64,000 nt of DNA from Lachnospiraceae bacterium C1.1 (lineage in GTDB: Bacteria > Bacillota > Clostridia > Lachnospirales > Lachnospiraceae), in assembly GCA_030434875.1 (NCBI GenBank), contig JAUISW010000001.1, positions 1,871,501 to 1,935,500 on the forward strand, read 5' to 3'. Position numbers and translations under genes: made by a program. Within the stretch, counting starts at the first letter, position 1. Each line of letters begins with the position of its first letter. The notes beneath the pieces were generated by a model. It was given only the letters and a program-made list of their open reading frames with translations. It was not told the DNA's origin and ran no database searches. Positions 25,631 through 53,030 of this stretch are shown one piece after another.

Positions 25631-25701
25631 AGGGGAATCATACAGTGGCAGTATCACGGTCTCCAAAACCGTTCACGGGAGTTCGAATCTCTCTTCCCCT
25701 G
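25631..25701 (+). tRNA. tRNA-Trp (CCA anticodon)
   Basis: The 71-base cloverleaf has acceptor AGGGGAA/TTCCCCT with discriminator G, D stem ATAC/GTAT, anticodon stem ACGGT/ACCGT with loop CTCCAAA (anticodon CCA), and T stem GGGAG/CTCTC with loop TTCGAAT. The variable loop is four bases. The 3' CCA is not encoded (the DNA reads CTA after the discriminator). It stands alone, with its own promoter and terminator. Confidence 0.95.
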
Positions 25702-44638: not shown

Positions 44639-45778
44639 TCAGAAATTAATAAGATATGAGGATTTTTTCTCTCTTAGCAGTTTTTCTTCGCCCTTAGATT
44701 CTATATAAATTTCCGGCATATCCCTTGATAAAAAGAGTGCCGGTGCTTCAGTTACCGAATAAGCCCCGCTTCTTTCAAACCTCAGCACATCTCCGACTGA
44801 AAGTTCCTTAAGCTCAACCTCTCTGACAAGGACATCCGCAGTAGTACAAAGACTTCCGCAAAGGCAATATGTCTTTTTCTCTGAATCGGGCCGATCAGGA
44901 GTCTGCAATATGACAGGTATCTTCATCGCCATGTTCTGCCCGTAATAATTAAGCTGATGAATACCGCCATCCAACATGGCATAATTCACACCCTCAGTAG
45001 TTTTAATATCCGCCACTGTAGTCTCGTAAAAACCACTGACAGCAGCCATAAATCTTCCCATCTCTATACTGAGCGGGTATTTCGCGGCAAATTCCATAAG
45101 ATAGGGAGCTGCCTCCTCAAGAGTTGATCTTTCGGTAGTTTCAGATTTCTCAGCTGTTTCCTCAAAATAATCAACGCCAAGCCCGGGACCATATTCTACT
45201 ATCTCAGCTCTGAAATTAAAGCGGTTCCCGGCTTCTGTCAAAATCTCTTCCAACAGATTAAGATCCTTTTCAACCGCCTTTACCCTTCTCTTGGATGTTC
45301 CTGAAAAAAGATGGATACCCACTATATTCAGCAATGGATTATCCTTTTCCCTCTCTATCAAAGAGAAGAGATCTTCTTTGCACATGCCGAACTGATTTCC
45401 GGATGATATTCTCAAAAGAACCTTTGCGGATATTCCTGTATCCTTTGCTGCCTTATTTACAATATCAAACTGACCTATGCTTTCCGCTGTAAGATAACGT
45501 GCGCCTTCTTTTAAGGCTCTCACACTGTCTTCATATCCTTTAACTACTCCGGAATAAAGTATATTCCTGCCCGGAACCGATAATTCTTCACATATCGAAA
45601 GTTCACCCGGAGAGCATACTTCCACCATTTCAATTTTATCAGGAAGGCAGTGCAGCAAAAAAGGATTAGCCTTCATTGAATATACAAGCTGTATTCCCGG
45701 AAGCATTTCTGCAATATAATTTACCCTTTCCGCAAATCTTTCCGCACTGAATACATATCTCGGAGTCAATTTATTCAT
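44639..45778 (-). CDS. fold-III PLP-dependent decarboxylase (LysA/ornithine decarboxylase type)
   Basis: A 379-residue PLP enzyme of the alanine racemase-fold decarboxylase family. The PLP lysine is in YSMKANPF (near residue 36), followed by GIHLFSGT, the Gly-rich phosphate loop EYGPGLGVDYF, EMGRFMAA and the catalytic CGSLCTTADVL. Members decarboxylate diaminopimelate, lysine or ornithine, or amino acids tethered to a carrier protein; in butirosin synthesis BtrK acts on glutamyl-ACP. Its position directly after an ACP gene and an amino-acid ligase favours a carrier-bound substrate (inference). The ATG at 45778 overlaps the ACP stop; a TTG at 45769 with GGGAG nine bases upstream is an equally good start. 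Confidence 0.85.
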   Translation of the reverse strand: MNKLTPRYVFSAERFAERVNYIAEMLPGIQLVYSMKANPFLLHCLPDKIEMVEVCSPGELSICEELSVPGRNILYSGVVKGYEDSVRALKEGARYLTAESIGQFDIVNKAAKDTGISAKVLLRISSGNQFGMCKEDLFSLIEREKDNPLLNIVGIHLFSGTSKRRVKAVEKDLNLLEEILTEAGNRFNFRAEIVEYGPGLGVDYFEETAEKSETTERSTLEEAAPYLMEFAAKYPLSIEMGRFMAAVSGFYETTVADIKTTEGVNYAMLDGGIHQLNYYGQNMAMKIPVILQTPDRPDSEKKTYCLCGSLCTTADVLVREVELKELSVGDVLRFERSGAYSVTEAPALFLSRDMPEIYIESKGEEKLLREKKSSYLINF

Positions 45779-46004
45779 CTCCCATAAGACGCTCTACAAG
45801 AGCCTGTATGGCATCTACAGAATCAAAGTTTTCTGCCTTGAGTTCCTTAGGACCGATCTCAATATCAAATTCATCATCAAGCTCTGATACAATATCAACA
45901 ATATCGAAAGATTCGAGAATATTTCCGCTTACGAGTTCTGTCTCCTTCTCAAAATCAACATCAGCTCTTACATTGCTTAAGATTTCAATAATTCTTTCTT
46001 TCAT
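45771..46004 (-). CDS. acyl/aminoacyl carrier protein (DltC-like)
   Basis: A 77-residue acidic carrier protein. The phosphopantetheine serine lies in NILESFDIVDIV (Ser32), where ESF replaces the usual DSL. The four-helix pattern is normal for ACP/DltC. GGAGG precedes the ATG, and it overlaps the adenylating enzyme gene by four bases. It is inferred to carry the activated amino acid between the ligase, the PLP enzyme and the MBOAT. Confidence 0.88.
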   Translation of the reverse strand: MKERIIEILSNVRADVDFEKETELVSGNILESFDIVDIVSELDDEFDIEIGPKELKAENFDSVDAIQALVERLMGDE

Positions 46005-47515
46005 TTTCTGATTCCTCCAAATGTTTCCTTTTCCAAAGTTTTTATATCTGTTTTTCCGTTAGGAAGTTTTGCCAGCGATTCTAATTGCTTTATTTTTCTT
46101 GGTACCATAAACAAGGGAAGCATTCCTTTAAGCTGTACCGCTATCTCACGACTTGCGGTCTCCCCTGTATATAGGAGCCAGAGATTCTCCTTTTTACTGT
46201 CATAGAGAGCTGCACATTCTGAAACACCTTTTATCTCCATTGCTGCCGCTTCTATTTCATCAAGCTCGACACGGTGTCCCATATGCTTAATCTGCCTGTC
46301 GGAACGTCCATGGAATTCAAGTTCTCCATCCTCCCTGAACCTTCCTATATCTCCGGTCTTATAAATTATCTCTCTATATGCACTGTTCAGCGGATTCTGC
46401 ACAAAAGCAGCTGCCGTTCTTTCTGCATCATTATAGTAGCCAAGAGTCACACATGGACCCGATACACATATTTCTCCATATTCGCCCTGAGGGACAGCCT
46501 TGCCATTCTCTGAAAGAAGAAATACCCTGTAATCATCATAAGCCTTTCCTATGGGAAGAACCTCATCCTCAGAAACCTTATGATCGACGACATAGTAAGT
46601 GCATGAAGCCGTTGCTTCTGTCGGTCCGTACTGGTTTACAAATCTGCATTCCGGAAGGTTTTCCTGCCAGAGAGCAAGCACCTTTCCCGGCATTACAGAG
46701 CCCGAAAAGCAAAGTTTCTTAAATCCCTTGAGCTCGCAATCCTTAAACGCACCAAGCTTTGTGATCACAGTGACGGCAGAGCTGCTCCAGCCGGCCGCCG
46801 TTACTCCATGCCTGTTCATACTGTCAAAAAGCACATCAGGCTGCATGAAATACTCCTTAGGCAGGAGAAATGTCCTCGCCCCTGTAAGAAGCGGAAGATA
46901 TATATCTCTTATTGCTGCAATATAATCAAGCTGTGACTGGGATGCCAGCACATCAGTCTCGTCGATTCCCATAACATCTCTGTAAGAGTTGATATAACAG
47001 ATAAGAGACCTGTGTGAGGTTATTACTCCCTTGGGATTTCCACTGGATCCCGATGTAAATATTATATATAAAGGATCATTTTCTGTCAGCCTGTCTTTAA
47101 CATTTTTAATAGCATTTTCATCAATTTCATTTTTAATAAGTACTGATGAATTTAAGGTTCTGCAGTTTTCAATCAGAAGATCCCTGTCATCGGTTATTAA
47201 CGCAGGGTTTCCAAGCGTTGACAGTATGCGTTCACGTCTGCTCAATGGATCCTTTGCCTCTATGGGAGCATATGCCCTTCCGGCATAAACCACTCCAAGA
47301 AATACCGCTATTGTATGAACGGATCTTTCCATCATGACCGCAACAGGACCTTCCGGCAGGTTTTCTCTTATTATTCCTGATCCTACACGTTTTGCTTCAT
47401 TTCTCAGCTCTGCAAAAGTAATTTTTTCATTTTCATCTTCATATACAACTCTGTCCGGATAAGCTTCAGCAGCTTCCTCAAGCCATTCCAGGACATTTTT
47501 ATTAAAATTGCGCAT
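46001..47515 (-). CDS. amino-acid adenylating enzyme (DltA-like, NRPS A-domain family)
   Basis: A 504-residue stand-alone adenylation domain. Core motifs are seen: A3 FTSGSSGNPKGV, A5 NQYGPTEAT, A7/A8 YKTGDIGRFREDGELEFHGRSDRQIK and A10 PNGKTD with the catalytic Lys. This fits activation of an amino acid as its AMP ester and transfer to the adjacent carrier protein. Length matches DltA (about 505). The amino acid cannot be read with certainty; it need not be D-alanine. Confidence 0.88.
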   Translation of the reverse strand: MRNFNKNVLEWLEEAAEAYPDRVVYEDENEKITFAELRNEAKRVGSGIIRENLPEGPVAVMMERSVHTIAVFLGVVYAGRAYAPIEAKDPLSRRERILSTLGNPALITDDRDLLIENCRTLNSSVLIKNEIDENAIKNVKDRLTENDPLYIIFTSGSSGNPKGVITSHRSLICYINSYRDVMGIDETDVLASQSQLDYIAAIRDIYLPLLTGARTFLLPKEYFMQPDVLFDSMNRHGVTAAGWSSSAVTVITKLGAFKDCELKGFKKLCFSGSVMPGKVLALWQENLPECRFVNQYGPTEATASCTYYVVDHKVSEDEVLPIGKAYDDYRVFLLSENGKAVPQGEYGEICVSGPCVTLGYYNDAERTAAAFVQNPLNSAYREIIYKTGDIGRFREDGELEFHGRSDRQIKHMGHRVELDEIEAAAMEIKGVSECAALYDSKKENLWLLYTGETASREIAVQLKGMLPLFMVPRKIKQLESLAKLPNGKTDIKTLEKETFGGIRK

Positions 47516-49097
47516 ATATCAGATCCTCCGAAGAATATCCGGTTCCATAGGCACCAAATATTATGATCACAAAAATGCATATATACCAGAATGCAAATCT
47601 TACCGGTATAGGCAGACTCTCAAGCTTCTTTCTGATAGGAAAATGCATTTCTTTCATTACACTTACTGCAATAACGACCAGTAATCCGCCATATACAGAA
47701 ACATAAGCATAGAAATCCATATTCAGATTTCCGAGATTTGCTATCAGCATATCAAATCTGAGATTCGTAAATATACTCTTAAACATATCTATTCCGACCT
47801 CCAGAGTCTGTGCCCTGAAGAACATCTCTCCTATTATGATTATGAAAAAGAGTTTTATAAATCTGAATATCCTTACCGGGGCAGATTCTTCCTTAAGCTT
47901 GAGTTTTGCAAGCAAGGCAAGGAATGGCTCCTCTAAAATATTCTCTATAAATATAAGCACAAAATAATACATTCCATAGAATATATAAGTCCATCTCGGT
48001 CCATGCCAGATACCGTTAGAAAGCCATACAAGGAAAAGCGCGATCGTCGGAGCCGTAAAGTGTGCCACTCCCTGACCGGCTACAACCTTGACCTTCTTGG
48101 TAAACTTCATTATCGGCTTTGCCAATGATACGGGATAAAAGATATAATCCCTGAAGAATGTACCAAGTGTAATGTGCCATCTGTGCCAGAAATCTGAAGC
48201 ATTCTTTGCGAAGAAAGGCTGGGTAAAATTCTCCGCCATTCTAACTCCAAAAAGTCTTGCACTTCCTATTACAATATCAATGGATCCCGAAAAATCCATA
48301 TATTCCTGAATAGTAAATGCGAAAGCTGCATATAGCGCAACTCCTCCGTCCGTATAAGTACCTTCGTAAAGTGCGCTTATAGATGGCGCAAGCTGATCGG
48401 CAATGACCAGTTTCTTAAAAAGTCCCCAGAGAATCCTCTGATAACCCTCCGCAAGGTCCTGGTATTTAATATCATTTCCTGCAAAAAGAGCCTTTGAATC
48501 CTCTCCATATCTGGTAATTGGTCCCTCAACTATCTTCGGGAAAAATGAAAGATAAAGTGCAATATTAAAGAGACTTTCATCTGCCTTTATATCTTCTCTC
48601 GAAATATCAGTCAGATAAGATATCGCCATGAGTGTATAGTAGGATATTCCAAGCGGTGCAGCAAGATTAAGCATTTTCCAATTGACGGGATGTCTGACAA
48701 GCTCTGAAACCCTTACTATATTAAGACCTATAAAATCAAGATACTTAAATCCTACGAGCACCAGCAGCAATAAAACAATTCCGGTCACAAGCGTCTTCAT
48801 CCGCTTTTTTGCCCGCTCTTTTCTCTTAATGGTCTTATCCTTATTTATTTTTTCAATAAGAAGTCCCATCTTCCAGGTAAAAACAGATTCCGCGATATTT
48901 ATGAGCAGGAGCCATTTACTGAGTGATGCAAAAAATATCCAACTGGCTCCCAATAATACAAACTTCCTTTTCTGCTGCGGCACCAGCTGATAAATAAGAA
49001 CCGTAAGCGGAAGAAAAAGTGCAAAATACATCCATACTGAATATGACAGATCTCCCCACCAACGGCTCAAATCATTCATAATTTCAGCATCAAACAT
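47502..49097 (-). CDS. MBOAT family O-acyltransferase (DltB-like)
   Basis: A 531-residue polytopic membrane protein. It carries the MBOAT region (FFRDYIFYPV, HRWHITLGTF) and the active-site His in WLSNGIWHGPRWTYIFYG. Such proteins pass acyl or aminoacyl groups across the membrane, as DltB does for D-alanine and AlgI for acetyl. The ATG at 49097 shares one base with the upstream stop (TGATG). It is placed between the SGNH gene and the ligase gene, the same neighbourhood as in dlt operons. Confidence 0.92.
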   Translation of the reverse strand: MFDAEIMNDLSRWWGDLSYSVWMYFALFLPLTVLIYQLVPQQKRKFVLLGASWIFFASLSKWLLLINIAESVFTWKMGLLIEKINKDKTIKRKERAKKRMKTLVTGIVLLLLVLVGFKYLDFIGLNIVRVSELVRHPVNWKMLNLAAPLGISYYTLMAISYLTDISREDIKADESLFNIALYLSFFPKIVEGPITRYGEDSKALFAGNDIKYQDLAEGYQRILWGLFKKLVIADQLAPSISALYEGTYTDGGVALYAAFAFTIQEYMDFSGSIDIVIGSARLFGVRMAENFTQPFFAKNASDFWHRWHITLGTFFRDYIFYPVSLAKPIMKFTKKVKVVAGQGVAHFTAPTIALFLVWLSNGIWHGPRWTYIFYGMYYFVLIFIENILEEPFLALLAKLKLKEESAPVRIFRFIKLFFIIIIGEMFFRAQTLEVGIDMFKSIFTNLRFDMLIANLGNLNMDFYAYVSVYGGLLVVIAVSVMKEMHFPIRKKLESLPIPVRFAFWYICIFVIIIFGAYGTGYSSEDLIYAQF

Positions 49098-50068
49098 CAA
49101 TAAATCCCTGCCTCTCTATAACTGTTATTCCAATCTTCATACTTTGAGTCTCCCCTGTGATCATCCATGGAATAGTTTTCCATGATATATTTTCCAAGAT
49201 AATTGCTGACCTTCTTCGAACCCTCGAAACTCATATGATCTCCCCCATCCATGGTGTCGAGATTCCAGTCAAATCCAATATCTTCTTTATTCAGATCAAT
49301 ATACGGAACTGAATTTTCACGAGCCCATTCAGCAACTGCATCATGTCTTGCATTATTCCAGCCAACGGGCCTCGGTACACTTATTAATAGAAAATCCGTA
49401 TTGTTTTCTTTTGTAAAAGCATAGAGTTCATTCAAATACTTCAGTGACTCTCTGCTCATATTTTCCTTTGAAGGACCCCTGTCCATATAATCCGGATCAT
49501 TATCATAGGGAATTACAGAATCTGAGTATTCAAATCCCTTTAATCTCTTATGTTCATCGGCCGTTGGCTTTTCCGGAGAAAAATCAGGAAGCCAGGTTTT
49601 ATAAAAGACATGATAATGTAATATCGGAAACAGATTTTCAATAAAATTCGTAGGAATTGCATACTTGTCTTTGTGCGGTACAGAGTCAGTAAAGAGCGAG
49701 TTTGTCTCAAGCACTACAAGGCGCGGCGCATGATCATCGAAACTTGTCTCTACCATCGAAACGGCATCGCAAAGTCTGAGCGCACTGTCGCTCAGATCAT
49801 ATGATGTAAATCCATAGTCCGTAAATATCTGCAAAGGAGATATTGATCTGTATACAACGCTGTCTCCCGAAAAAACAACATCAATATCCGTTTTTTCATC
49901 CTTAAGGTCAATATGCTTTCTGTTTGTCTTTGATATATCATAAACTTCGCCGTACCTAGGCTTTACAGCCAAAGATGCGGCGATCATCAAAACAGCCAGT
50001 ATTGTAAAAAACGCTGTTGCTTTTATTAAATTTATATTCAGCTTATTTTTCAAATCACCCATAGTCAT
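49097..50068 (-). CDS. membrane-anchored SGNH-type protein (DltD/AlgJ-like)
   Basis: A 323-residue protein with one N-terminal membrane helix (about 14-34) and an external domain. The GDS motif has Ser70 in VVFSGDSVVYRS. A C-terminal catalytic-type Asp-His occurs in MDGGDHMSFEG (near 276-277). This fits the SGNH fold of DltD, AlgJ and AlgX partners that finish O-acylation outside the cell. An alternative start at 50062 (M3) is possible. It overlaps the ASKHA gene by four bases. Confidence 0.78.
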   Translation of the reverse strand: MTMGDLKNKLNINLIKATAFFTILAVLMIAASLAVKPRYGEVYDISKTNRKHIDLKDEKTDIDVVFSGDSVVYRSISPLQIFTDYGFTSYDLSDSALRLCDAVSMVETSFDDHAPRLVVLETNSLFTDSVPHKDKYAIPTNFIENLFPILHYHVFYKTWLPDFSPEKPTADEHKRLKGFEYSDSVIPYDNDPDYMDRGPSKENMSRESLKYLNELYAFTKENNTDFLLISVPRPVGWNNARHDAVAEWARENSVPYIDLNKEDIGFDWNLDTMDGGDHMSFEGSKKVSNYLGKYIMENYSMDDHRGDSKYEDWNNSYREAGIY

Positions 50069-51576
50069 TCATTATAGCTAAAAAAACACATGTTGTCTAT
50101 AAAACTCTTTTCAAATCTCTCAATCTCTGAAAGCTCTGCAACTACACATATAGAAAGGATTTTTTTAATATCCTCATCTGCCTTTCCGGGATTTCTGATA
50201 TATCTTAAAGCGCCCTTAAGCGAGCTGTTTCCGACAGTCAGGGTCTTTGCCCTAAGCTCACGGGGAATAAGTGAAATTTCTGCCGCATCTTCAATTTTTA
50301 AATATTCTGCAAAACTGCCGGCCATATATAAAGAAGATATCTCATCGAAAGAGCTCCCCGCCTCAGAGATTATAGTCTCAAATCCTGCTGCAGCTGCAGC
50401 CTTTGCCAGCATCAGATTGTGAATATCCTCCTGGCTTATCTTTATGCGTCTTAAATCGGTTTCTGCCAGGGTAAATCCGCCTTTAATATACTCATCTTTA
50501 AGACTCCCGTTTTCTAAGATAATGCCGGTTTTGAACATTTCCGCTATTGCCGATATGATACCTGTTCCGCATATTCCCCTAGGAAGAGAATCAGCAATGG
50601 TTTTTATTCTGACCCTGCCGCTTTTTTTATCAATCCTGACATCTGATATGGCTCCTTCAACCCCGGCCATTCCCATTGATATATTACCGCCTTCAAACGC
50701 AGGTCCTGCCGCCGCACTTGCCAGATATATCCTCTTCCTGTTTCCTACAGCCATCTCAGCATTTGTTCCAAGATCTATAAATCCGATCTTTTCGTCTTTT
50801 TCATGAATTTTAAGAGCATATATTCCGGATATGATATCGCCGCCTATAAATGCCGATAATCCCGGAATTATGATAACTTTGGCATCAAAAGATCCTACCC
50901 TGCCAAATACCTCAGCAAATTTAAGGGGTGCGAATTCAAGCCTTTCAGGTTTAAAAGGTGATGATGCCATTCCCGAAAGATCAAGTCCCATAAGGAGATG
51001 GATCATAGTTGTATTAGCAGATATCACAATTTCTTTAAGAGCTCCTTCTTTTACTGAAAGATTAAAGAGCATCTTCCTTAAAAGGTCAATAATATCCTTC
51101 TGTACAGCTGCCCGAAGACTTGCCGCCCTTCCTCCGACAGCAGCATCGATCCTCGAGATCACATCCCCGCCAAAAGCTTTCTGATGATTCATACAGGATT
51201 CTCTTGCAACAGAATGCATATTTCGTAAACATAGAAGCTCTGCCGATATGGTGGTTGTTCCTATATCAATCGCAGCCGCAAAAATATCCCCTTCTCTTAT
51301 ATCACTGTCAGAAACCGCTGACATATCGTGCTCATTAGTATATTTTTCCTCTCCGCCAATGAGCTCTACCTCTGCATCCCCTTCAACAAAAGTCCTGCAG
51401 GCCAGACTTTCTTTTCCATTAAACTTAAGCCTACATTTTCCGCACCTTCCGTTTCCTCCGCAGGGAGAATCTATTTCCAGCTGATTATCTCTTAAAATTT
51501 CAAGAAGATTATCCCCTTTTTCGGCGTCTATCATCTTAACTCCGGATTTTCGGATTATCTTAAGCTTAAACGGCAT
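50065..51576 (-). CDS. corrinoid activation protein: 2Fe-2S ferredoxin plus ASKHA ATPase (RamA-like, DUF4445)
   Basis: A 503-residue protein. Residues about 1-80 are a plant-type [2Fe-2S] ferredoxin (CGGNGRCGKC and a later Cys in LACRTF). The rest is the ASKHA ATPase domain seen in RACE/RamA proteins (IDIGTTTISAELLCL, NHQKAFGGDVISRIDAA, FIDLGTNAEMAVG). Such proteins reduce the inactive Co(II) corrinoid of methyltransferases using ATP. The next gene upstream is an activation-domain protein, so the pair probably keeps a corrinoid enzyme active (inference). It links this operon with the cobalamin cluster next door. Confidence 0.9.
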   Translation of the reverse strand: MPFKLKIIRKSGVKMIDAEKGDNLLEILRDNQLEIDSPCGGNGRCGKCRLKFNGKESLACRTFVEGDAEVELIGGEEKYTNEHDMSAVSDSDIREGDIFAAAIDIGTTTISAELLCLRNMHSVARESCMNHQKAFGGDVISRIDAAVGGRAASLRAAVQKDIIDLLRKMLFNLSVKEGALKEIVISANTTMIHLLMGLDLSGMASSPFKPERLEFAPLKFAEVFGRVGSFDAKVIIIPGLSAFIGGDIISGIYALKIHEKDEKIGFIDLGTNAEMAVGNRKRIYLASAAAGPAFEGGNISMGMAGVEGAISDVRIDKKSGRVRIKTIADSLPRGICGTGIISAIAEMFKTGIILENGSLKDEYIKGGFTLAETDLRRIKISQEDIHNLMLAKAAAAAGFETIISEAGSSFDEISSLYMAGSFAEYLKIEDAAEISLIPRELRAKTLTVGNSSLKGALRYIRNPGKADEDIKKILSICVVAELSEIERFEKSFIDNMCFFSYNE

Positions 51577-51579
51577 TCC

Positions 51580-52218
51580 TTAATCTCCTCCCGATGATCT
51601 GTAACTGCAATCTTTTTTATCACATTCGGCACAATTATGATATATTTTCATAACAGACGGATCCTTTACCGTCGGCATAACCGCAGCATATGTCTTAACA
51701 GGTGACATCATATAACTTTCCGTTACCCTGACTCCCAGATTTTTCTCTGCCTTTAGTACAGATGCAATGACCTTCTGCATTTTTCCTTCTATCATATCAG
51801 GAGCATCATAAAGACCTTCTATTCCGAAATCATTGTCTCTTGCATACTTTTCAATTTCATGCAAGACAATTTTTTCGCAAGAAAAAAGGCAGTTGTCGGC
51901 AATACCATCGACAATCATGCCCTTAACAAATTCACCCCTTGACATATATTTGTCTGAAAGTTCTGTTACAGCCCCTCCGACTGTAATACAAAAAAAGAAA
52001 AGATCTCTTCCGTAAAAACGCATCGATTTAGGAAAATCCTCCGGAATCCTGCCAAAACTCACCGCCGCTGCCGGATCAAGCCTTTCAAAAGTTTCCCCTT
52101 TCACTTCCCTGAATGCATTTTCAAACTCCTTATATGAGGGATCTGATTTCTGACACCCGATTGAGCGGAGAATTATCTCTTCTCCGCTCACCACCGGTTT
52201 CATATGAAAAATTTTCAT
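51580..52218 (-). CDS. vitamin B12-dependent methionine synthase activation-domain-like protein
   Basis: A 212-residue cytoplasmic protein similar to the stand-alone MetH reactivation domain. Typical parts are FFFCITVGGAVTELSDKYMSRGEFVKGMIVDGIADNCLFS and a C-terminal Cys-rich end (HNCAECDKKDCSYR) found in RACE-linked forms. In Clostridia that have a MetH lacking its own activation domain, such proteins take over that job. It starts within the mecA stop (4-base overlap). No metH is present in the window. Confidence 0.85.
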   Translation of the reverse strand: MKIFHMKPVVSGEEIILRSIGCQKSDPSYKEFENAFREVKGETFERLDPAAAVSFGRIPEDFPKSMRFYGRDLFFFCITVGGAVTELSDKYMSRGEFVKGMIVDGIADNCLFSCEKIVLHEIEKYARDNDFGIEGLYDAPDMIEGKMQKVIASVLKAEKNLGVRVTESYMMSPVKTYAAVMPTVKDPSVMKIYHNCAECDKKDCSYRSSGGD

Positions 52219-53030
52219 AATTCTCTTAAAACTTCCACTGCATTATTTTCAATCAATACTTCACTGTTTTCAACAAGATACTGCTTAGCAGCTGCCTTAA
52301 GCGTTACAACATCTCCAAAATCATAAGCGAGTGTTCTGATTCCTTCATAAATCCTGTCCGGCATTACATCATGCTGGATCATAAGATAGAAAGCCTCATC
52401 CTCACTGAACTTATAAAGTGTACTGTTGATCCTGCTTACAGAAGAACAGTTCTTTGCATATATCCTGCCTTCTTCGAGTTTCTCAAATCGTACAACGAAG
52501 GATTTCTTCATTGCTGCTTTGAGTTCTGCAATAATACTCTGATTCTGCTCCTGGGCATCAAGTTCTGCCCTAAGCTGTCTTATCTCACTCAATGCTTCCG
52601 TCGAGCCTTCTCCGCCATTTTTAAGCTGCTCTTCCATCATATCAAGTAATTCTCGCTTCATAGCCAAAGGAAGCTCGGGCATACTGTCCTTCTGCGCTTT
52701 GACCTCCTCAGCAATCCTGTTTTTCAGAGACCGTGCCTTTTCAGGATCTCCTCCTGTTACGTGTTCAAGCGCTTCCTCAAGATTTGCCTCATGAAAAACT
52801 ATCGATATGCTCCTGTCTTCAAGTACACTGATCTGCGCTGAAGCCATATGGATTCCATTTCCATGTTCTATTCCAAGCTTAAGCGCTGCCCTATCCATGA
52901 GCTGGCGAAAAAATCTTTTTGTCTCGTCAGTCTTTGCCATAATATCATCAAGATTAAGACCGTTGTCAAAAAGCTCCTGCTCGCTCATGACGCACCTGAT
53001 ATCCGTATCACTCAGTCTGGTAAATTTCAT
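52215..53030 (-). CDS. mecA: MecA-family adaptor protein for ClpC
   Basis: A 271-residue protein. The N-terminus (MKFTRLSDTDIRCVMSEQELFDNGLNLDDIM, then TKRFFRQLMDRAALKLGI) matches the substrate-binding half of MecA. A charged linker with a coiled coil (about 105-170) follows, and a C-terminal MecA domain (KKSFVVRFEKLEEGRIYAKNC, YKFSEDEAFYLMIQHD). MecA delivers substrates to ClpC, which is encoded at 27621-30068. It is first in an operon with corrinoid-activation and Dlt-like genes; the functional link is unclear. AAGGG precedes the ATG at 53030. Confidence 0.85.
   Translation of the reverse strand: MKFTRLSDTDIRCVMSEQELFDNGLNLDDIMAKTDETKRFFRQLMDRAALKLGIEHGNGIHMASAQISVLEDRSISIVFHEANLEEALEHVTGGDPEKARSLKNRIAEEVKAQKDSMPELPLAMKRELLDMMEEQLKNGGEGSTEALSEIRQLRAELDAQEQNQSIIAELKAAMKKSFVVRFEKLEEGRIYAKNCSSVSRINSTLYKFSEDEAFYLMIQHDVMPDRIYEGIRTLAYDFGDVVTLKAAAKQYLVENSEVLIENNAVEVLREL

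Follow-up and report, generated by a model that had tools for sequence, protein, structure and literature searches.

A candidate surface aminoacylation cassette with a carrier-linked decarboxylase in Lachnospiraceae bacterium C1.1

Lachnospiraceae bacterium C1.1 carries, in a 64,000-nucleotide stretch of contig JAUISW010000001.1 (assembly GCA_030434875.1, positions 1,871,501 to 1,935,500; hereafter the window), a cassette of five genes for an SGNH protein, an MBOAT acyltransferase, an adenosine monophosphate (AMP)-forming amino-acid ligase, an acyl carrier protein (ACP) and a pyridoxal 5'-phosphate (PLP)-dependent decarboxylase. We propose, with a probability of about 0.58, that the cassette makes and exports a decarboxylated amino-acyl group through side-chain loading of a carrier, decarboxylation on that carrier and MBOAT/SGNH transfer, and it is likely a variation on the D-alanine system of Gram-positive walls. 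By this scheme the ligase would adenylate an acidic amino acid at its side-chain carboxyl and charge the carrier protein with it; there the PLP enzyme would remove the free alpha-carboxyl, leaving beta-alanyl-S-carrier (or 4-aminobutyryl-S-carrier); the MBOAT protein would carry the group through the membrane to a Tyr at its own C-terminus; and the SGNH protein would accept it on Ser70 and esterify an acceptor outside the cell, for which an anionic surface polymer is the likeliest candidate. Published relatives lend us, by analogy, the carrier-bound decarboxylation and the Tyr/Ser shuttle; the aspartate substrate, the side-chain activation and the polymer acceptor we infer. The genes, their families and fold, their linkage and the conserved catalytic and pocket residues are documented here, and the locus is real, recurring and mechanistically coherent. 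The main idea of an initial annotation of this DNA was right; its interpretation overall is partly supported.

A ligase-carrier-decarboxylase unit beside Dlt-like partners

The five open reading frames lie on the minus strand with head-to-tail overlaps (Table 1), as first annotated. Four of them had been read as the parts of DltD, DltB, DltA and DltC, and the resemblance stands: as in the Dlt pathway, there is a carrier to be loaded by a ligase, an MBOAT protein to take the group through the membrane and an SGNH protein to transfer it. The curated models, however, fall well under their cut-offs for DltA (TIGR01734, 278.7 versus 559.85 bits, or 50 percent; NF003417, 286.8 versus 476, or 60 percent), DltB (TIGR04091 on the MBOAT protein, 142 versus 375, or 38 percent) and DltC (NF003464 on the carrier, 29.3 versus 68, or 43 percent). 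A check for a separate canonical dlt operon showed that no ligase of the window's genome exceeds the TIGR01734 cut-off; canonical DltABCD identity was rejected on these grounds; among 60 family genomes one has a DltA match above that cut-off. The cassette differs from the Dlt pathway in its extra PLP decarboxylase, and nine of the ten pocket code positions of its ligase differ from those of the canonical DltA of locus L081 (D-L-M-V-L-C-T-V-A-K).

Table 1. Genes of the cassette (positions in the window)
Feature	Positions	Strand	Details
SGNH/GDSL protein	49097..50068	-	323 aa; predicted N-terminal helix 3-34; Ser70, His278; DltD/PatB place
MBOAT O-acyltransferase	47502..49097	-	531 aa from ATG (532 from TTG at 49100); PF03062 above cut-off
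AMP-forming amino-acid ligase	46001..47515	-	504 aa; PF00501; TIGR01733 above cut-off
Acyl carrier protein	45771..46004	-	77 aa; expected phosphopantetheine site Ser32 in L-E-S-F-D
Fold-III PLP decarboxylase	44639..45778	-	379 aa; PF02784/PF00278; expected PLP lysine Lys36; Cys311-Thr312-x-x-Asp315

That the PLP gene belongs to the set, as initially annotated, is borne out by its linkage. Of 220 genomes drawn evenly from the family (each at least 90% complete, the window's genome among them), 41 have the PLP gene at E<=1e-90, and in 41/41 it lies within 2.3 kb of a close ligase on the same strand. An order-level draw of 116 genomes (E<=1e-60) gave five genomes with the gene, four of the five beside a close ligase; at the fifth locus, L125, the only ligase is less similar (178 bits) and lies four genes away. 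The scanned contigs of named genomes contain 56 PLP loci, mainly from Lachnospiraceae and Ruminococcus, with a ligase in 53/56, a carrier in 53/56, an MBOAT gene in 30/56 and all five families in 24/56; in the three loci without a ligase the PLP gene is at most 2 kb from a contig end. MBOAT did not pass the threshold in 26/56 and SGNH in 32/56, some loci being cut by contig ends. Gene order varies too: among the loci with five families, 17 read AMP-ACP-PLP-MBOAT-SGNH, four have the window's order (SGNH-MBOAT-AMP-ACP-PLP), one reads AMP-PLP-ACP-MBOAT-SGNH, and in two the PLP gene precedes the ligase and there is an additional MBOAT gene. Of the 41 PLP-linked ligases of the even draw, 24 have MBOAT and SGNH, nine MBOAT alone and eight neither, counted out to 5.5 kb on the same strand. 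The conserved unit is thus ligase, carrier and PLP decarboxylase, not all five genes, and the acyltransferase part seems exchangeable. By the initial annotation's own test, homologous loci in which the PLP gene is unlinked to the other four, the loci with no MBOAT or SGNH above threshold count against its five-gene reading.

The neighbour counts of the even draw come from a PLP profile built without three fused proteins: at L053:7953-11225, L055:7953-11297 and L052:7896-11132 the decarboxylase frame continues into a part that, judging from profile cross-hits, resembles Ig-like and transglutaminase proteins, the L053 and L055 fusions standing beside ligase, carrier, MBOAT and SGNH genes and L052 running off its contig in the ligase. 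Weaker matches of the PLP profile (53-115 bits) were rejected as PLP genes, Pfam having assigned four of them to transglutaminase/Ig-like proteins.

Three trios that lack an MBOAT gene have other neighbours: L036 has Gfo/Idh/MocA, hexapeptide transferase, DegT and UDP-GlcNAc 2-epimerase genes, L059 an Antibiotic_NAT-type acyltransferase and NeuB, and L034 GtrII; these sugar clusters may place beta-alanyl or 4-aminobutyryl (GABA) groups on amino sugars. Elsewhere in the window's own genome, a second Dlt-like ligase is encoded with a carrier and a 367-aa protein, no MBOAT gene adjoining (C1:502856-504364; L002, L279), and a lone carrier gene of the cassette type (L077:10473-10700, C1:480472-480699) is separated by about 4 kb from an MBOAT/SGNH pair; MBOAT genes number 10 in the whole genome (12 matches, 10 frames).

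Among sequences of solved structures, the PLP enzyme matches BtrK best (103 bits), then 6knh (97.5), then diaminopimelate decarboxylases. BtrK is named in the PDB as a decarboxylase of glutamyl-BtrI, a carrier-bound substrate; 6knh, there a 'probable diaminopimelate decarboxylase', we take to be SbnH. Both have the motif C-T-P-x-D, compared with C-E-S-S-D in 1tuf, the only diaminopimelate decarboxylase whose alignment was shown. The window enzyme has C-T-T-A-D and 56/56 relatives have C-T-x-x-D, as do the PLP enzymes on plasmid stretches of Tritonibacter, Streptomyces and Sinorhizobium, where a ligase gene lies nearby in every case; across 19 aligned rows Lys36, Cys311, Thr312 and Asp315 are invariant. 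With ligase and carrier genes as its neighbours, the enzyme is also linked in the manner of the carrier-bound decarboxylases BtrK, VinO and AfcP. The butirosin system that BtrI and BtrK serve is comparable in its best-matching enzyme and common motif; it differs in its product, an aminoglycoside, and in its ligase BtrJ, which is of the ATP-grasp rather than the AMP-forming kind.

Decarboxylation on the carrier, as initially suggested, has published precedent. AfcQ activates L-aspartate, not beta-alanine, and loads AfcK, on which AfcP decarboxylates it (PMC12186527, in part), and VinN loads 3-methylaspartate, not 3-aminoisobutyrate, on VinL, where VinO decarboxylates it (PMC11284099, in part). 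By their published description, these systems of AFC-BC11 and vicenistatin resemble the window cassette in having a stand-alone ligase, a stand-alone carrier and a PLP decarboxylase, which there make a beta-amino acyl thioester from an acid of the aspartate type; they differ in feeding lipopeptide or polyketide assembly, whereas the partners in the window are MBOAT and SGNH proteins. A further likeness is the exosortase A-associated trio, in which an AMP ligase adjoins a PLP decarboxylase, as in the pSymB pair of Sinorhizobium meliloti, which passes both TIGR03098 and TIGR03099. Membership of that family was rejected for the window proteins, which lie far under both cut-offs (194.3 versus 592.35 and 154.2 versus 478.45 bits). 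On a Streptomyces plasmid (L132:8938-12883), a PLP enzyme, a holo-ACP synthase, an AMP ligase and a carrier lie by ectoine synthase and ectA. Published parallels exist for each enzyme step of our scheme; among the papers listed by searches of openly licensed PMC literature, no title or abstract beginning concerned the combination of these steps in envelope acylation.

Proposed export and acceptor

In 33/33 aligned MBOAT rows, His366 and the C-terminal Tyr529 (532-aa numbering) are present. The C-terminus ends in DLIYAQF, with the motif L-I-Y-A-Q-F in the window and F, M, L or P in first place in relatives. A C-terminal F-x-Y-x-x-F is the shuttle motif by which PatA moves an acetyl group to its Tyr before its SGNH partner finishes the transfer, and such MBOAT-SGNH pairs are described as envelope-polymer acyltransferases (PMC12148441, in part). 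The window pair has what marks this group: the MBOAT family, the invariant His, the C-terminal Tyr and an SGNH partner. The window MBOAT thus looks like a PatA-type protein that would take its group from the carrier. The initially proposed transfer by a Dlt-like MBOAT is amended as to the shuttle, since DltB passes D-alanine to a separate DltX (PMC12148441, in part). PatA differs in its donor, acetyl-CoA, where we expect the carrier protein; in the same source, as far as drawn on, other MBOAT/SGNH pathways lack a similar carrier, so that an MBOAT-carrier pairing is unusual. Start-codon context and the ribosome-binding site suggest ATG 49097 as the MBOAT start.

The SGNH protein owes its fold assignment to a predicted model and a fold match, scans with Pfam- and NCBIfam-type models having given no family match. 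Its Ser70 is present in 23/25 aligned rows (Cys in L053 and L118) and His278 in 25/25. No DltD structure appears among the best 50 fold matches listed for the model, which excludes nothing, and the alignment profile had only two matches among PDB sequences, at E 0.59 and 0.83. As to the acceptor, the sulfatase family is matched four times in the genome, in three cases by proteins of 606-626 aa, presumably the size of lipoteichoic acid synthases, and Glyphos_transf once; a glycerol-phosphate polymer is thus a possible acceptor, with no tie between these genes and the cassette.

The ligase pocket and rival explanations

If decarboxylation takes place on the carrier, the alpha-carboxylate must be free, so that the substrate has to be attached by another, side-chain carboxyl, a point the initial annotation omitted. 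Side-chain activation is within the reach of adenylation domains, as the delta-carboxyl of aminoadipate is activated by ACV synthetase (PMC7147772, in part). The window ligase has the pocket code I-A-R-G-C-S-Q-A-S-K (positions 235, 236, 239, 278, 299, 301, 322, 330, 331 and 517 in PheA numbering), with Asp at 233; the columns were set by core motifs with PheA itself outside the alignment, and column 235 was also checked against a gramicidin synthase alignment. Ile replaces the usual Asp235 anchor of PheA-type domains, which binds the alpha-amino group (PMC2174460, in part), and Arg occupies 239. A basic pocket residue could hold the alpha-carboxylate, which fits side-chain loading; in models with docking, Arg311 of AfcQ and Arg331 of VinN have been proposed to bind it (PMC12186527, in part).

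The 220 family genomes contain 112 close ligases, whose regions were all retrieved for neighbour counts. By code, 52 have Asp233 (D233; 40 PLP-linked, 12 not), in two classes, type I (I-A-R; the window and Ruminococcus) and type II (D-V-K); 28 have the code D-A-K-C (an Asp/Glu racemase-like gene accompanies 20 of them, a PLP gene one, and neither gene seven); and none of the 32 with other codes has a PLP or racemase-like gene. Arg or Lys at 239 is found in 41/41 PLP-linked and 20/20 racemase-linked ligases, and in 3/32 of those with other codes. In the pocket count of the named loci, two truncated ligases among the 53 were left out.

Several observations weigh against our scheme. A basic residue at 239 also occurs in 12/12 D233 ligases without PLP, in 7/7 D-A-K-C ligases with neither gene and in the genome's own second ligase. 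PLP is lacking within 5.5 kb on the own strand for 12/52 D233 ligases, and a scan of one neighbour protein per locus in 10 of these 12 loci (L192 and L212 left out) found a formyltransferase gene in four (L232, L247, L249 and L246), so that pocket class alone does not imply decarboxylation. At 239, more distant PLP-linked ligases on the Sinorhizobium, Tritonibacter and Streptomyces plasmids carry Ser, His or Tyr, with Arg near 331 instead. Positions 330/331 are Ala/Ser in the window ligase, whereas three of the four L131-L133 ligases show Arg there; in our reading this looks like the place of the AfcQ/VinN Arg, AfcQ and VinN themselves lying outside the alignment. With no counterpart of that Arg at what seems to be its place, the window ligase would need Arg239 for the task, in which it would differ from the Afc and Vin systems. 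In a ligase tree (quick method, midpoint root), which includes two reference rows and omits one of the 112 rows for its length of under 430 aa, all 52 D233 rows fall to one side of a branch whose SH-aLRT support is 90; pocket residues thus follow ligase phylogeny, and the counts above reflect few origins rather than independent events. Lastly, no MBOAT was found near 8/41 PLP genes, one of which lies on a 3.3-kb contig.

Which acid is loaded, and by which route, separates the rival explanations. A GABA-like ester had been the initial annotation's example, and a decarboxylated group does fit, with aspartate to beta-alanine at least as well supported as glutamate to GABA. Loading of L-glutamate by its gamma-carboxyl and export of 4-aminobutyryl is a version of our scheme rather than its opposite, and a possible but clearly less probable one: the PDB name of BtrK gives glutamyl-BtrI as its substrate, yet BtrK matches at only 103 bits, AfcQ and VinN take aspartate-type acids (PMC12186527 and PMC11284099, each in part), and the one sibling racemase tested (below) is nearer to aspartate/cysteate than to glutamate racemase models. 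The pocket alone could not separate the two substrates, and we judge that the loaded acid is probably aspartate, by about 2:1, beta-alanine being somewhat favoured over GABA. Free amino acids are the usual substrates of LysA-type enzymes, and the PLP enzyme might likewise decarboxylate free aspartate or glutamate, leaving the ligase to load ready beta-alanine or GABA, which would suit the absence of Asp235, as might be expected of a ligase for non-alpha amino acids. We consider this improbable, since Arg/Lys239 suits a substrate that still has its carboxylate and the closest solved relative, BtrK, acts on a carrier-bound one; AfcQ does not activate beta-alanine and VinN refuses the decarboxylated acid (PMC12186527 and PMC11284099, each in part).

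Even less credence goes to a PLP racemase or epimerase that would supply a D-amino acid as in classical Dlt: sibling cassettes do carry a racemase-like gene, and the enzyme matches Ala_racemase_N weakly (22.5 bits, cut-off 24.1), but both Orn/DAP/Arg decarboxylase domains are above cut-off, Cys311 of the decarboxylase motif is invariant, and the sibling racemases belong to PF01177. Least credible of all is that the enzyme is a plain LysA, its lysine being used by the cell or loaded. TIGR01048 matches at 142.8 bits; this is under the cut-off of 297.9, however, a better match (279 bits, also under cut-off, motif C-E-N-N-D) is the likely LysA elsewhere in the genome, and Thr replaces Glu in the motif, so that LysA identity was rejected. 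As for the acceptor, delivery to a sugar, glycolipid or secreted small molecule instead of a wall or lipid-linked polymer is unlikely, if less so than the free-acid route: three examined trios without MBOAT adjoin sugar genes and may serve sugar N-acylation, whereas the window has an MBOAT/SGNH pair, of a kind described as envelope-polymer acyltransferases (PMC12148441, in part), and family scans recognised no sugar gene among the direct neighbours of its cassette.

Sibling cassettes, surroundings and meaning

Related ligases are accompanied by other tailoring genes; sibling ligases with MBOAT/SGNH partners carry an Asp/Glu racemase-like gene in place of the PLP decarboxylase. The Asp/Glu racemase-like gene at 20/112 ligase loci was detected by a profile built from three proteins, which match PF01177, a family of PLP-independent racemases. 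The one protein tested scored 207 bits with TIGR00035 (cut-off 93) and 208 with CuyB (above cut-off), against 35 with the glutamate racemase model TIGR00067 (cut-off 146.65). Such genes lie near D-A-K-C ligases at L130:9283-9999, L118:7950-8663 and L122:7520-8212, and the sequences suggest that these cassettes may make D-aspartate-type surface esters; at the D-A-K-C locus L121, a Na/Ca exchanger gene stands where three others have the racemase. Formyltransferase genes within or next to ligase-carrier-MBOAT cassettes point to a possible N-formylated, carrier-bound amino acid. In the order draw, a GNAT gene lies between a D-S-K-D ligase and its carrier, followed by MBOAT and SGNH (L116:11277-12068 and L117:9195-9989); a profile of these two found no neighbour above 80 bits in the 112 family loci. 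At L263:4755-5879, a gene of the Beta_elim_lyase family, presumably fold-I PLP enzymes, lies directly upstream of a D233 ligase with no fold-III PLP gene nearby. The racemase, formyltransferase and GNAT siblings indicate a cassette family with interchangeable tailoring enzymes and support an acidic amino acid substrate.

Downstream of the window cassette are rpmE-like, prmC-like and prfA-like genes (labelled by eye) and a DUF1385 gene (by family match); upstream, at 50065-53030, are RACo-like, B12-dependent methionine synthase activation-type (a marginal match, 25.1 bits versus a cut-off of 25) and MecA genes. The RACo-like gene overlaps the SGNH gene by 4 nt, and the upstream gene order is repeated in locus L009. 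The sole Rfam match above gathering scores in the window is a tRNA gene at 25631-25701.

We give about even odds to a broader view, in which Lachnospiraceae and relatives use one ligase/carrier/MBOAT/SGNH core with varied tailoring enzymes to decorate their surfaces with beta-alanine/GABA, D-aspartate-like or N-formylated residues, not D-alanine, the window cassette being the decarboxylase member. The scheme joins beta-amino-acid starter pathways of natural products to cell-envelope acylation, two subjects not found linked in the literature covered above. If it is true, surface aminoacylation systems would form a wider family with D-alanylation as only one member; bacteria of a family where DltA passes its cut-off in 1/60 genomes would set their surface charge with other amino acids; and the ligase pocket, together with the adjoining tailoring gene, would allow the attached group to be predicted from sequence.

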